From Polaribacter huanghezhanensis (lineage in GTDB: Bacteria; Bacteroidota; Bacteroidia; Flavobacteriales; Flavobacteriaceae), in assembly GCF_030444335.1 (NCBI RefSeq), contig NZ_CP128595.1:1426001-1490000 (forward strand): a DNA stretch of 64,000 bases, in the 5' to 3' direction. The notes beneath the pieces were generated by a model, which worked only from the letters and a program-made list of their open reading frames with translations, was not told where the DNA came from and ran no database searches. The position numbers and the translations under genes are program-made. Shown one piece after another: positions 13,789-63,424 of the stretch. Each line of letters starts with the position of its first letter. Within the stretch, counting starts at the first letter, position 1.

Positions 13789-13854
13789 CTCACGGAAAAC
13801 CGTGAGAGGGGCAACTCACGGTTTTCCGTGAGTCGACTCACGGTTTTCCGTGAG
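13789..13854. repeat. Array of three inverted repeats upstream of the response regulator
   Basis: Three 18-base inverted repeats, each with arms CTCACGG and CCGTGAG around four A or T: 13789-13806 (AAAA centre), 13815-13832 and 13837-13854 (both TTTT centre). Their centres are 26 and 22 bases apart. They lie directly upstream of the promoter dyad at 13860-13880. The same unit recurs at 63361-63424 next to the same dyad. They look like protein-binding sites rather than terminators because no T tract follows and a promoter lies downstream. Confidence 0.85.
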
Positions 13855-13859
13855 GTATA

Positions 13860-13909
13860 AATACCCCATAAATGGGTATTGTATAAACTGTTTTTGTGAT
13901 TTAAATTTG
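13860..13909 (+). promoter_or_regulatory. Promoter with overlapping dyad, driving the response regulator
   Basis: Dyad with arms AATACCC (13860-13866) and GGGTATT (13874-13880). The right arm runs into the -33 TTG (13879-13881), followed by a 20-base spacer and a consensus -7 TAAATTTG (13902-13909). The start codon of the regulator is 14 bases after the -7 element. The stretch from the array to the -7 element is repeated with identical spacing at 63305-63424. This is the only content of the 356-base gap besides the terminator at 13595 and the array. Confidence 0.85.
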
Positions 13910-13923
13910 TAAAGTAATTAATT

Positions 13924-14583
13924 ATGAAAGGAAAAATTAAAGTTCATGTCGCAGATGATCATATGATTCTGATAGAAGGAATTATCGCGATGTTAAATAC
14001 TGATAAAGATATTGAGGTTGTTGGCTATTCATTAACAGGGAAAAAAGTTGTAGAATGGTTTAAAGCTAACGAAGCAGATATTTTGGTGTTAGATATTAAT
14101 ATGCCTGAGTTAGATGGTATAGAAGTGTTGAAAAAGTTTAATAAAAAGGAAAAACATCAAAAAATCATTATGTTATCTAGTTATGATGACGCTAAATTGG
14201 TTAAAGAGTTAACAACTTACGGAGCTGATGGTTTTATATCAAAAACAAGTGCAGGTGAGCATATTTTAAAAGCAATAAAATCTGTTTACAATGGAGATCC
14301 TTACTTTAGTGATGATATTAAAGAAGGGTTGTTTAATCTAGCGCTAGGGTATAATGTAGTTGAAGGTTCTAGGCCAGATTTTGATGTAATAAGTAGTTTA
14401 ACGGAAAGAGAAATTGAAGTATTAAAACTGATAGTAAAAGAATATAGTACACAAGAAATGGCAGATCGGTTATTTTTAAGTGTCAATACAGTAGAAACGT
14501 ATAGAAAAAATTTATTAAAAAAATTAAATGTAAAAAATGCAGTGGGCTTAGCAATGTTTGCCGTTAAAAATAAAATTATATAG
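13924..14583 (+). CDS. NarL/LuxR-type response regulator
   Basis: A 219-residue two-component regulator. Receiver domain 1-122 with acidic pair D11-D12, phosphorylation site Asp57 (ILVLDINMPELDG), Ser85 and Lys107. LuxR-type helix-turn-helix at about 156-217 (LTEREIEVLKLIVKEYSTQE and LSVNTVETYRKNLLKKL). The probable partner is the TPR histidine kinase at 15428, of the HisKA_3 type that pairs with this regulator class; a lipoprotein gene lies between. Proteins of this class bind short inverted repeats as dimers, so the dyads upstream could be its own sites, giving autoregulation. That is an inference. Confidence 0.95.
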   Translation: MKGKIKVHVADDHMILIEGIIAMLNTDKDIEVVGYSLTGKKVVEWFKANEADILVLDINMPELDGIEVLKKFNKKEKHQKIIMLSSYDDAKLVKELTTYGADGFISKTSAGEHILKAIKSVYNGDPYFSDDIKEGLFNLALGYNVVEGSRPDFDVISSLTEREIEVLKLIVKEYSTQEMADRLFLSVNTVETYRKNLLKKLNVKNAVGLAMFAVKNKII

Positions 14584-14584
14584 A

Positions 14585-14660
14585 ATTCTATTCCCCAAAA
14601 TAGAATATTTCTGAAATCAAAAACTTATCCCCCTGAAAAAGAAATCCCCCAAGCCTATAT
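14585..14660 (+). promoter_or_regulatory. Hairpin and C-rich motifs after the response regulator
   Basis: Just after the stop codon is a hairpin with arms ATTCTATT (14585-14592) and AATAGAAT (14599-14606) and a CCCCAA loop. It lacks a strong T tract, so it is a weak terminator at best. Two C-rich motifs follow, ATCCCCCTGA and ATCCCCCAAG (within 14627-14653). They resemble the CTTCCCCCAAA loop of the candidate small RNA at 63185-63298. The rest of this 151-base gap holds no clear -7 element for the lipoprotein gene. Role unknown. Confidence 0.35.
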
Positions 14661-14734
14661 AATTACGGTATTGCTATCTCACTCATTTTTATAATAACAA
14701 ATAATTAAGTATAATCAAATTAAAATTTATCACC

Positions 14735-15403
14735 ATGAAAAAACTAAGTGTAGGTATTTTAGCCATAGTTTTAGCTTTTAGTTTTGCTTCTTGTTCAACA
14801 AACGAAACAGGATTAGAAACACCTCAAGCACCTTTATTAAAACAAGTTCAATTAAAAAGAGATGCTTCTGGAGCATACTCTGTAGATTATGTTGTTGCGA
14901 GTAATACCTTGCCAGATGTTCATAAAAACATGAATTCTTTAATGAACGAAGTGCATTTAAACAAGGTAAGTCAAGATACCAAAGATCAATATAGAAATGA
15001 TTTTATGCTAGATAATAATACATTACGTATTGGTTTTTTTGACAATGAGACTGGAAAACAAATGAAGTTTTCTATTGAAGATGAAAACATTACCTTTGCG
15101 AAAGGGAGCACTACAAAATTTTTAAAAGAATATAAATTGTCAACCAATAAAGATGGTTCTATTCAGCTGGATTTTGAAGTAAATAATAATATAAAAACAG
15201 AATTTGTTTTCAATAAAGATTCAGCAACTTATGAAGTGCATTTGTCTAAAGGAACCAGTTCTGATAGTAAATTTTCTAGAACATTAACTGTACCAGATAC
15301 AGGTGTATTAAAGTTAGATTTTGTAAACCATAATCTACTAGGTAAAGGATTAGCAGAAAGTACTAGTACAATACCAAGAGTTATTATTGTTTCTAGTGAG
15401 TAA
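14735..15403 (+). CDS. Lipoprotein of unknown function between regulator and kinase
   Basis: A 222-residue predicted lipoprotein: signal MKKLSVGILAIVLAFSFAS with Cys20 as lipidation site. The mature chain has no motif I recognise; it is polar, with alternating strand-like segments (QLDFEVNNNIKTEFVFN, TYEVHLSKG) suggesting a beta-rich fold. It lies between the response regulator and, 24 bases downstream, the TPR histidine kinase, so it is probably co-transcribed with the kinase. It may sense or transmit an envelope signal to the kinase, or be an output of the system; neither is shown by sequence. Confidence 0.8.
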   Translation: MKKLSVGILAIVLAFSFASCSTNETGLETPQAPLLKQVQLKRDASGAYSVDYVVASNTLPDVHKNMNSLMNEVHLNKVSQDTKDQYRNDFMLDNNTLRIGFFDNETGKQMKFSIEDENITFAKGSTTKFLKEYKLSTNKDGSIQLDFEVNNNIKTEFVFNKDSATYEVHLSKGTSSDSKFSRTLTVPDTGVLKLDFVNHNLLGKGLAESTSTIPRVIIVSSE

Positions 15404-15427: not shown

Positions 15428-17245
15428 ATGAGTAAAACGATTGAAAGATTATTTTTATTGGGAATCCTTTTTTTTTTTAATTTTCAATCAAAAGCGAACC
15501 CTAGCACTAAAGGAGAAACACGATTAAAACCTGTTTTTCCTTTAGTTGTATTACAAGAAAAAGATACTACCTATCTACAAGAATACCAACTTATAAAGCA
15601 ATTATATGAAAAAGAAGATTTTACTACTGCTTTAAAGTTGGCTCTGCATCTAGATACAAGTTTAGAACAGAAAAATAGTGTAGAGATAAAATATGCAAAC
15701 ACCTTTTTAATTGGTAAAATTTTTAAAAAAAGAAATCTTCATCAAAAAGCATTAATCTACTATAAAAAAGCATTGTACCTGTTAACAGAAAATGAGCATT
15801 TTAAAGACAATAAGCCTTTTTTTTTAGACAAATCATTTGAAAGAGAGAAAAAAATAGCGAATACCTTATTAAATATAGGTAGTGAGTACTATAAATTAAA
15901 TAAAAAAGACAGTGCCGCTATTTATTTTAAGAAAATCATAGATATTTCATCTTTAAATGACTTTCCAGACATTAAAGCATCTGGTTATACAAACTTATCA
16001 GCCATACAGTTGGAAAAAGAAAACTTTGTTTTGGCAAAAGAATATGCTTTAAAAGCCGTAGAAATTTATAAGAGCAACAGTAATAAACTCTCAGAAGCTA
16101 GTGCGTTAAACAATTTAGCGAACATTTATTTAGTTGAGAAAAACTATGCTAAGGCGAAAGAAATCTATACGAAAGCAATTGGGTTAATTAAAAATGATAA
16201 AAGTATTGTTGCTATTAAAAACAAAGAAGATTTATATTACAATTTGGCATATATTTTATATATGCAGAAAGATTATAAGGCGTATGAGTATTTAGATCAA
16301 TCTTTTGTTTTTAAAGACACCTTAACAGCCAGAGAATTTAAAAGAATCGTTAAAGGGGTTTATGCAGAATATGAAGAGCAATATAAAGTAGAATTAGTAA
16401 AAAATCAAGTAGCCTTAAAGAAAGCGGAGGAAAAGAAAACGGCTTGGTTTTTTGGAATCTTAAGTTTGTTAATCATTATAATTTCTGGAGTTGTTATTTA
16501 CAATTATAAATTGCGCCAAAAGAACTTAAAACTACATTTAGACCAAACCAAATTATCACAAGAAAGCAAGTTAGAAAAATTAAAGTCTGATTCTCAGGTG
16601 CGTATTTTAAACGCAACATTAGATGGTAAAGAAGCAGAGCGGAAACAAATTGCAGAAACATTACACGATAGTGTAAGTTCTTTATTGTCTTCTGCCAATT
16701 TGCATTTACAGGCAAGTAAAATGCAATTCAAAGAAAAAGCTCCTTTAGAAATTGATAAAACGCAAAAAATAATTATAGAAGCTTCTCAAACAATTCGAGA
16801 TTTATCACATACGTTAGTCTCGTCTGTTCTTTTAAAATTTGGATTAAAATATGCTATTAAAGATATGGCAGAAAAATATTCAAATTCAAAAATTGAAATT
16901 AAAACGACTATAAAAAATGTAAGACGCTATCAACAAAGTTTTGAAATAAAAGCAAATAATATCATTCAAGAGTTGGTCAATAATATTTTAAAACACAGTA
17001 ATGCCACAAAAGCAACTGTGCAAATGGAAGACAAAAAAGGAATTTTATTTGTAGATATACAAGATGATGGCGAAGGGTTTGACAAAACAGAAATTGCTAA
17101 AAAAGACGGATTAGGAATTAATCAAATCGAAGCTAGAATACAAATGATGAAAGGGAGATTTAGGATAGATTCTAATTCTCAAACAGGAACAAGAATTAAA
17201 ATTGAATTGCCGATTTTAGAAAAAAAAGAAACTAGTCGCGCGTAG
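15428..17245 (+). CDS. TPR-repeat sensor histidine kinase (HisKA_3)
   Basis: A 605-residue inner-membrane kinase. Order: N-terminal signal or anchor (about 5-23), periplasmic tetratricopeptide repeats (about 45-290, for example SEASALNNLANIYLVEKNYA), a charged helix, one membrane segment (about 338-358, WFFGILSLLIIIISGVVIY), a coiled coil, then HisKA_3 with phospho-acceptor His413 (ERKQIAETLHDSVSSLLSSA), and a HATPase domain with the N box ELVNNILKHSNA, DDGEGFD and GLGINQIEARIQMMKG. Together with the regulator at 13924 it forms a NarL-type two-component system. Periplasmic TPRs suggest sensing by protein contact. Its end overlaps the converging phosphoesterase gene by 14 bases. Confidence 0.93.
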   Translation: MSKTIERLFLLGILFFFNFQSKANPSTKGETRLKPVFPLVVLQEKDTTYLQEYQLIKQLYEKEDFTTALKLALHLDTSLEQKNSVEIKYANTFLIGKIFKKRNLHQKALIYYKKALYLLTENEHFKDNKPFFLDKSFEREKKIANTLLNIGSEYYKLNKKDSAAIYFKKIIDISSLNDFPDIKASGYTNLSAIQLEKENFVLAKEYALKAVEIYKSNSNKLSEASALNNLANIYLVEKNYAKAKEIYTKAIGLIKNDKSIVAIKNKEDLYYNLAYILYMQKDYKAYEYLDQSFVFKDTLTAREFKRIVKGVYAEYEEQYKVELVKNQVALKKAEEKKTAWFFGILSLLIIIISGVVIYNYKLRQKNLKLHLDQTKLSQESKLEKLKSDSQVRILNATLDGKEAERKQIAETLHDSVSSLLSSANLHLQASKMQFKEKAPLEIDKTQKIIIEASQTIRDLSHTLVSSVLLKFGLKYAIKDMAEKYSNSKIEIKTTIKNVRRYQQSFEIKANNIIQELVNNILKHSNATKATVQMEDKKGILFVDIQDDGEGFDKTEIAKKDGLGINQIEARIQMMKGRFRIDSNSQTGTRIKIELPILEKKETSRA

Positions 17246-63184: not shown

Positions 63185-63298
63185 TAATAAAAGCGATTAA
63201 AAATTTGGGGGAAGTTTTTAATCGCTTTAGGTTAACAAATAATTAAGGGGTAATTTTTATATAACAAAGTATAACAATAATTAATTCATTATAATTAT
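63185..63298 (-). ncRNA. Candidate small RNA, about 110 bases
   Basis: Proposed from three facts: a full promoter on the minus strand at 63340-63305, no reading frame beyond a few codons after it (the first ATG is followed by AAT TAA), and a strong 14-bp hairpin at 63228-63190 (arms AAAGCGATTAAAAA and TTTTTAATCGCTTT) followed by TATTATTTG as terminator. The hairpin loop is CTTCCCCCAAA. C-rich single-stranded motifs of the same kind follow the response regulator at 14585-14660. Transcript ends are approximate. It is a prediction without experimental support. Confidence 0.6.
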
Positions 63299-63304
63299 AT
63301 ACTT

Positions 63305-63354
63305 CAAATGTAAAGTAGTTTTTGAAGTTGTACAATACCCATTTATGGGGTTTT
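63305..63354 (-). promoter_or_regulatory. Promoter with overlapping dyad, second copy
   Basis: On the minus strand: ACCCCATAAATGGGTATTG (from 63350), whose right arm holds the -33 TTG (63334-63332 region), then 20 bases, then -7 TACATTTG (63312-63305). The spacing from the dyad arm to the -7 element is identical, base for base, to the copy at 13860-13909. It points away from the coiled-coil gene, into the candidate small RNA. Confidence 0.8.
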
Positions 63355-63360
63355 TTTCTT

Positions 63361-63424
63361 CTCACGGAAAACCGTGAGCTGACTCACGGAAAATGGGGTA
63401 TTAGCTCTCACGGAAAACCGTGAA
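63361..63424. repeat. Second array of CTCACGG inverted repeats
   Basis: 63361-63378 is a full 18-base inverted repeat (CTCACGG/CCGTGAG). 63407-63424 is a copy with one end mismatch. Between them 63383-63402 is a hybrid: CTCACGGAAAA joined to TGGGGTATT, one half from each type of dyad. Centres are 23 bases apart. Confidence 0.85.

Follow-up and report, generated by a model that had tools for sequence, protein, structure and literature searches.

A predicted small RNA gene behind an operator array of response-regulator type in Polaribacter

The locus considered here (minus strand, 63424-63184 of the window) raises the question of what a promoter of the type found at a response-regulator (RR) operon controls where no gene follows it. 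The window is the whole stretch of 64,000 nucleotides that was analysed, from Polaribacter huanghezhanensis; its genome is a single contig of 2,587,874 bases (2.59 Mb). The best explanation, considered probable, is that 63300-63186 (-) is a small RNA (sRNA) gene with a promoter that the RR encoded at 13924-14583 activates, and that the RNA acts by seed pairing. An RR-controlled non-coding RNA is held with high confidence; for seed pairing as the mode of action, the chances are judged even. The shared promoter, the conserved RNA, the tandem amplification, the matching operators, the co-variation with the recognition helix and the bias in C runs are features of the sequences. Transcription, activation, phosphorylation, termination in vivo and the start and end of the RNA are inferred, as there are no expression data. 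The features are given in Table 1.

Table 1. Features of the predicted sRNA locus and of the RR operon (window coordinates).
Feature	Positions	Strand	Basis or remark
Operator 1, most distal; perfect palindrome minus one mismatch	63407-63424	-	sequence
Operator 2, mixed: one CTCACGG-type and one TACCCCA-type half-site	63383-63400	-	read directly
Operator 3, perfect palindrome CTCACGG-4-CCGTGAG	63361-63378	-	sequence
Operator 4, proximal, AACCCCATAAATGGGTAT	63335-63352	-	last T common with the -33 TTG
-33 element TTG	63333-63335	-	overlapped by the proximal operator
-7 element TACATTTG of the sRNA promoter	63305-63312	-	20 nt past TTG
Predicted sRNA, about 115 nt	63186-63300	-	start inferred from the -12/-5 rule, end inferred from the hairpin
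First C run UACCCCUU, 5' of the terminator hairpin	63247-63250	-	sequence
Terminator-like hairpin, 14 bp, loop CUUCCCCCAAA	63190-63228	-	C run in loop, 63211-63207
Four operators of the RR promoter, spacing 26, 22, 25	13789-13806, 13815-13832, 13837-13854, 13862-13879	+	sequence
RR promoter TTG-20-TAAATTTG	13879-13909	+	sequence
NarL/FixJ-type RR (Response_reg + GerE), predicted operator binder	13924-14583	+	domain matches
RR-lipoprotein intergenic region, three UCCCC runs at 14593, 14629, 14646	14584-14734	+	motif common to the sRNA family
Lipoprotein of the RR operon, no Pfam family	14735-15403	+	lipoprotein call from reading its start
TPR sensor histidine kinase (TPR + HisKA_3 + HATPase_c)	15428-17245	+	domain matches

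Four 18-bp palindrome-like operators, with spacings of 24, 22 and 26, are read directly in the sequence of the minus strand. They lead into a promoter of the Bacteroidetes type (TTG, 20 nt, TACATTTG) whose spacer is exactly 20 nt (63332-63313), the length given in the preliminary description. The layout is that of the RR operon promoter; reading both promoters bears out the earlier statement that it recurs about 50 kb away on the opposite strand. TAnnTTTG is placed at -12 to -5 relative to +1 (PMC9723704, available in part, where Polaribacter is not mentioned); by this rule the start is predicted at about 63300 and not, as first proposed, near 63298. No gene follows, as had been said, and about 115 nt (about 110 in the first estimate) carry no real frame: the open reading frames over this RNA are short, and the longest (40 codons, GTG start) extends into the promoter.

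The hairpin has 14 perfect base pairs, as described, followed by CUU-CCCCC-AAA. Its loop is of 11 nt; the C5 loop first reported is obtained only if two extra U-A pairs form beyond a C/A mismatch. The tail, TTTTATTATTTG, had been called T-rich; it is only moderately so. The hairpin is absent from the output of a simple terminator scan because its 11-nt loop exceeds the limit of that scan (3-8 nt). The RNA folds with a z of -4.4, and none of 200 shuffles was equally stable. At the level of sequence, this is an independent short unit without an open reading frame, with its own promoter and a terminator-like hairpin; that it is transcribed is inferred.

CTCACGG occurs ten times in the window, for a shuffle mean of 1.33 (maximum 5; none of 100 shuffles reached 10). 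The exact full palindrome is found at six places in the genome (control, 0): three at the RR promoter and one each at the window sRNA, at 1,081 kb and at 2,567.6 kb. The CTCACGG array and an ACCCC...GGGT dyad had been treated as separate motifs; they intergrade in relatives and form one array. Distal sites in relatives, read as 7-4-7, are of the CTCACGG, CTCACTG, CTCACCA, ATCCCTG, CTCCCTA or AACCCCA type. Typically, two distal sites lie 22 bp apart and the proximal site another 25-26 bp on, ending within TTG. The 22-bp spacing is found in 38 of 53 RR promoters and 47 of 65 sRNA promoters, the 25- or 26-bp spacing in 46 of 53 and 52 of 65; these counts are favoured by the script, which picks the best offset inside a small range. 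The centre of the proximal site lies about 9 bp upstream of TTG. An operator that overlaps the -33 element at about this distance occupies a class II activator position.

The RR meets the definition of the NarL/FixJ type, a receiver with a LuxR-type helix-turn-helix (PF00072, 1.5e-23; PF00196, 6.6e-18), and the nearest solved chains are VraR, EvgA, DesR and NarL. In the proposed mechanism, the RR, once phosphorylated (inferred), would bind the row of 18-bp palindromes, and the proximal dimer, lying over the -33 element, would help the housekeeping sigma factor. The same operator row would autoregulate the operon of RR, lipoprotein and kinase, and the RNA would terminate at its own hairpin. In one relative (G112, L071) the RR operon is broken: the RR is truncated, the lipoprotein is not found and the C-terminal part of the kinase follows directly; the sRNA is still present.

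The strict promoter pattern GGGKATTG-N20-TANNTTTG has 148 matches in 69 of 146 genomes of the genus (control, 12); this number is a table sum, and not every match is an RR or sRNA promoter. The sRNA promoter had been presented as the second copy; the copy is real, but a third strict one (2,567.6 kb, L006:2545-2908) precedes the gene of a 70-aa XRE regulator, and a degenerate array and promoter (TTG-20-TAGGTTTA; 1,081 kb, L005:2086-3687) stands before a lipoprotein-like gene. The protein encoded by the latter has a HESVH motif and belongs to no Pfam family.

Other arrays were observed. Diverged CTCACTG/CTAACGG sites lie at 1,151 kb (L021:2525-4977) flanked by an XRE gene and by a divergent gene for a VKOR/thioredoxin protein, which has a C39 match just under the cut-off. 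The latter gene is followed by one for a small peptide whose leader is of the GG type, and the locus is perhaps a peptide export unit of the same regulon. Another palindrome, CTTACGG-4-CCGTAAG, has three copies inside 1.4 kb (1,887,526-1,888,865 of the same genome). In a further lineage (L210-L213, L219-L221), arrays of the AGGGTTAACCCT type and a doubled GGGTATT precede not only the RR but also genes whose products are apparently exported, a hint that the regulon may be larger. In Bacteroidales (L093-L128, in part), CCCCATWAATGGGGATTG lies over the -33 element before FeoAB-like genes, an enolase-like gene and others (names from reading the sequences). It is apparently a separate operator-like promoter element; these matches, which precede feoAB-like and other genes, were rejected as members of the family.

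A DNA search of the 146 genus genomes gave loci with the same promoter followed by a related RNA. Extraction of those with a recognisable hairpin gave 48 RNAs. Five promoter matches without a hairpin by the extraction rule were excluded: the window's RR promoter and four that resemble members by eye. Ten family RNAs folded singly have z values of -2.9 to -7.5. The alignment took in 43 of the 48 RNAs; consensus folding of these retains the terminator stem only, with double changes in three of its nine pairs, and no common structure was found in the 5' part over the whole family.

A covariance model, R1, was built from the RNA alone, with the promoter excluded. At E <= 0.001 it has matches in 52 of the 146 genomes. 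The independent check consists of 21 matches in 19 genomes that contributed no training sequence (20 at E <= 1.2e-4; the second match of G145 at 5.8e-4). An array is seen upstream by eye in 16 of the 21, and 15 pass a script rule requiring a palindrome and the promoter. This rule was used only alongside reading by eye because it is lax: 183 of 2000 random stretches of the fetched loci pass it, some of them true loci. The matches without array are the second one of G025 and those of G035, G116, G101 and G137. Fifteen weak rows (14 at 2e-4 to 1e-3 and a repeat of G142) are mostly ordinary terminators in appearance; among them, reading by eye shows an array only in G138, G023 and the repeated G142, and G023 is the one row that satisfies the script rule. 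Six RNAs were missed by R1, five of them found by the promoter (G078, G004, G050, G107, G128) and one by a search of flanks (G041); each has at least one CCCC run.

Across the family, R1 matched 11 of 397 genomes; apart from the window's own genome, the ten are marginal (1.8e-4 to 9.6e-4). The 12 loci examined from these have no operator row by eye and look like gene ends with ordinary terminators, although two (L133, L134) pass the lax script rule. No convincing member was found outside the genus in this 397-genome sample.

The preliminary description would have been refuted by the absence of the hairpin beside the array in relatives. This was checked and is not the case: RNA, hairpin and array recur together, and by this criterion its reading was not refuted.

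The array-bearing sRNA is present in at least 46 of the 146 genomes (about one third of the sample), a lower bound because R1-negative genomes were checked only in part. Of these 46, 44 have the RR at E <= 1e-60; the other two are G032 (68% complete) and G145. At this threshold the RR is found in 116 of the 146 genomes, more widely than the sRNA so far, and part of the genus may therefore have gained the RNA later. Two near-complete genomes without an RR at E <= 1e-60 (G101, G116) have an sRNA-like match without array. In 20 R1-negative genomes (18 with the RR, two without), the 3' flank of prfA was searched for an array with a C-run RNA; 19 have none and only G041 is positive, under a strict rule (six of seven arm pairs) that weaker arrays escape. 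A separate observation concerns G035 (L151), where an sRNA-like hairpin lies beside prfA without an upstream array, though the RR gene still has one; the sRNA gene may have decayed there.

In 30 of the 39 loci examined, one of the two closest open reading frames to one side is prfA; the same holds for a GH31 alpha-glucosidase-like gene in 27 of the 39. The clade of the window has a 190-aa gene and rplT in place of the prfA neighbourhood (all gene names from reading the sequences). A second sRNA site lies beside a carbonic-anhydrase-like gene in G090, G032 and G030. Several relatives have tandem copies, each with one array and with promoter spacing, -7 element and hairpin kept: five promoters in G143 and G037, four in G105, three in G036, G033, G028, G118 and G133. 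The Hel1_85 record has four promoter copies. The family is thus multicopy in relatives (up to five in tandem); the window's own genome has one copy. The prfA neighbourhood and the tandem copies indicate a locus mostly inherited in place, with local duplication.

The operator sequence varies among species, but within a genome it matches between the RR promoter and the sRNA promoter, two separate loci. In 29 genomes, the mean half-site distance between the two promoters is 0.997, against 2.052 when permuted, and none of 5,000 or of 10,000 permutations was as close. The telling cases are operators identical at both loci, ATCCCTGAGCTCAGGGAT in G020 and ATCCCTGAATTCAGGGAT in G052; G042 and G090 have CACCA-type sites at RR and sRNA loci alike. 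The recognition helix changes with the operator. Its residue before the conserved Thr pairs with operator position 4 as N-A (25), S-C (8), H-C (6), K-A (4), T-C (1) and R-C (1), with a mutual information of 0.939 (45 RRs; 0 of 1,000 shuffles). For the E/D position of the helix and operator position 7, the mutual information is 0.533 (0 of 1,000 shuffles). Eight of 53 RRs, the truncated one of G112 and those without clear sites, were left out of the helix test. Neither the helix nor the within-genome statistics are corrected for phylogeny; since shared ancestry is ignored, the helix figures are strong hints and not probabilities. Because the operators match within genomes and vary with the RR helix, the RR is very probably the binder, a prediction for which there are no binding or mutant data. 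Control of the sRNA by the same two-component system, as first suggested, is the best reading, the array changing in step at both promoters; transcription, and activation as opposed to repression, are inferred. For the suggested regulator-sRNA circuit, the operator matching and the helix co-variation support the input side; the action of the RNA has not been shown.

The RNAs are rich in C runs. The 48 sRNAs contain 63 CCCC and no GGGG (dinucleotide shuffles: mean 16.7, maximum 26); at least one CCCC is present in 44 of the 48 and at least two in 19. The window RNA has UACCCCUU 5' of the hairpin and UUCCCCCAA in the hairpin loop. Five of the eight intergenic C runs of the window outside these promoters (both strands, own count) are inside the two transcripts. 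Some C runs may be structural and not seeds. The RNA would present its C runs, whose usual form in the family is UCCCC[U/A]A, in an open segment as well as in a loop, and most likely would act in trans, the runs pairing as seeds with G-rich sites of target mRNAs in the manner of LhrC. Seed pairing is favoured because the three UCCC sites of LhrC (Listeria monocytogenes) occupy the terminator loop, another loop and an open segment, and pair with lapB mRNA (PMC4132741, available part).

Searches for targets gave nothing convincing. GGGGA near ATGAA was found 43 times in the own genome (control, 28), and a GGGGA search across 30 loci gave one start-proximal case, a nuclease-like gene. Two candidates were dropped: the leader of the lipoprotein (14-nt complementarity), whose duplex ranks an unremarkable 4 of 51 leaders, and the start codon region of the XRE gene, because XRE homologs (E <= 1e-12) occur in only 18 of the 146 genomes.

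The main rival to seed pairing, a tentative one, is a decoy or sponge. UCCCC would be bound by a hypothetical protein, or by a G-rich RNA, whose normal site of action is the C-rich stretch that separates the RR and lipoprotein genes; the RR-driven sRNA would soak up this factor and so relieve the operon, giving positive feedback as with CsrB/RsmZ. It takes this place because the motif stands in the RR mRNA too, in the same orientation and not as a complement: TCCCC+[AT]A occurs at 8.7 per kb in the sRNAs and 9.4 per kb after the RR gene, for a background of 0.063, a density in each of about 140 times that of the surrounding loci. It is present in 40 of the 48 RNAs and 40 of 48 RR regions. Of the latter (48 found among 53 RRs), one shorter than 60 nt was left out; the remaining 47 RR-lipoprotein regions contain 155 CCCC and no GGGG. 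Multiple copies would also fit titration. However, C-rich seeds are a known pairing device, and much of the CCCC count of the RR regions is composition, because dinucleotide shuffles still average 88 (maximum 101). No common structure was found after the RR gene (RNAalifold energy 0.0), and GGA occurs three times in the 48 RNAs, never twice in one and not in the window RNA, so the repeated GGA of CsrB/Rsm-type RNAs is lacking. A related idea is likewise tentative: the RR operon mRNA and the tandemly amplified sRNAs share UCCCC[U/A]A, the sRNA either titrating, as a mimic, a factor that acts on the RR-lipoprotein-kinase mRNA or forming one seed pool with it, and operator and recognition helix would drift together, dragging the sRNA promoters along. 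If the mimic reading were true, the RR would fill the cell with RNA copies of an element that its own operon carries.

Another co-inherited factor, for example the XRE protein, could bind the array in place of the RR. The 70-aa XRE gene does carry the same promoter, but its narrow distribution beside that of the RR, and the co-variation of the operator with the RR's own helix, make this unlikely. It is very improbable that the array is an operator decoy titrating the RR at the DNA level with the transcript as a by-product: near-perfect rows of sites where no gene lies would suit it, but conservation extends to the RNA with its C runs and hairpin, tandem copies retain promoter spacing, -7 element and hairpin, and the C runs are strand-biased. 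Rho prefers C-rich, G-poor RNA. The C runs, the lack of GGGG and the AU-rich RNA could accordingly mark Rho loading sites between the RR and lipoprotein genes, with the sRNA competing for Rho; there are no Rho data, the sRNA is short and has its own hairpin, and little credit is given to this proposal. That the RNA encodes a short peptide can practically be set aside, nothing but short frames speaking for it, as the longest closed frame among the 48 members has 15 codons and 34 of them have no closed ATG frame. An RR-controlled RNA acting by seed pairing remains the preferred reading.

Rfam 15 gives only two tRNAs at gathering level in the window. In eight family loci it gives 14 matches up to E = 5, all under the gathering score; no match supports homology with LhrC, and no hit is named after it. 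The circuit had been called undescribed. This holds for the Polaribacter-directed sRNA literature, where none was found among open-access papers judged by title and start of abstract (work on the wider family, by the same partial view, includes F. psychrophilum and Bacteroides); such circuits are well known in other phyla. So far as found, the type, an sRNA driven by a two-component system, is known in other bacteria and new for this group.

The anatomy appears to resemble that of LhrC/LisRK, csRNA/CiaRH or Rsm/GacA, and no homology is claimed. GacA is also a LuxR/NarL-type regulator. The sources compared below were available in part, and the statements are limited to those parts. The several sRNAs RsmX/Y/Z of Pseudomonas are preceded by a palindromic upstream activating sequence that is potentially a site for GacA, and have a repeated unpaired short motif, GGA there and C runs in Polaribacter; they differ as sponges for RsmA-type proteins, no such protein being known for the Polaribacter sRNA, in which GGA is almost absent (PMC2375449). 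The csRNAs of Streptococcus have two to six genes per genome, predicted from CiaR-activated promoters with terminators after them (PMC3091779; PMC4507080); they belong to another phylum, and targets are known for some csRNAs but not for the Polaribacter sRNA. LhrC1-5 are likewise multicopy, G-poor sRNAs dependent on one two-component system, all five copies needing LisRK; the phylum again differs, and the lapB target is shown for LhrC whereas none is for the Polaribacter sRNA (PMC4132741). Within Bacteroidota, FopS of Bacteroides thetaiotaomicron is a multicopy sRNA family, but its 14 members are bound by RbpB and have canonical promoters, with at most one unknown extra regulator and no tie to a two-component system (PMC11697453).

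Few sRNA circuits have been worked out in Bacteroidota. The series of operators and recognition helices (CTCACGG, CTCACTG, CTCACCA, ATCCCTG and CTCAGGG types) is a natural test bed for the co-change of regulator and site. Multicopy sRNAs driven by two-component systems are known from Firmicutes and Proteobacteria, and a case in Bacteroidota would show that the design arose again.
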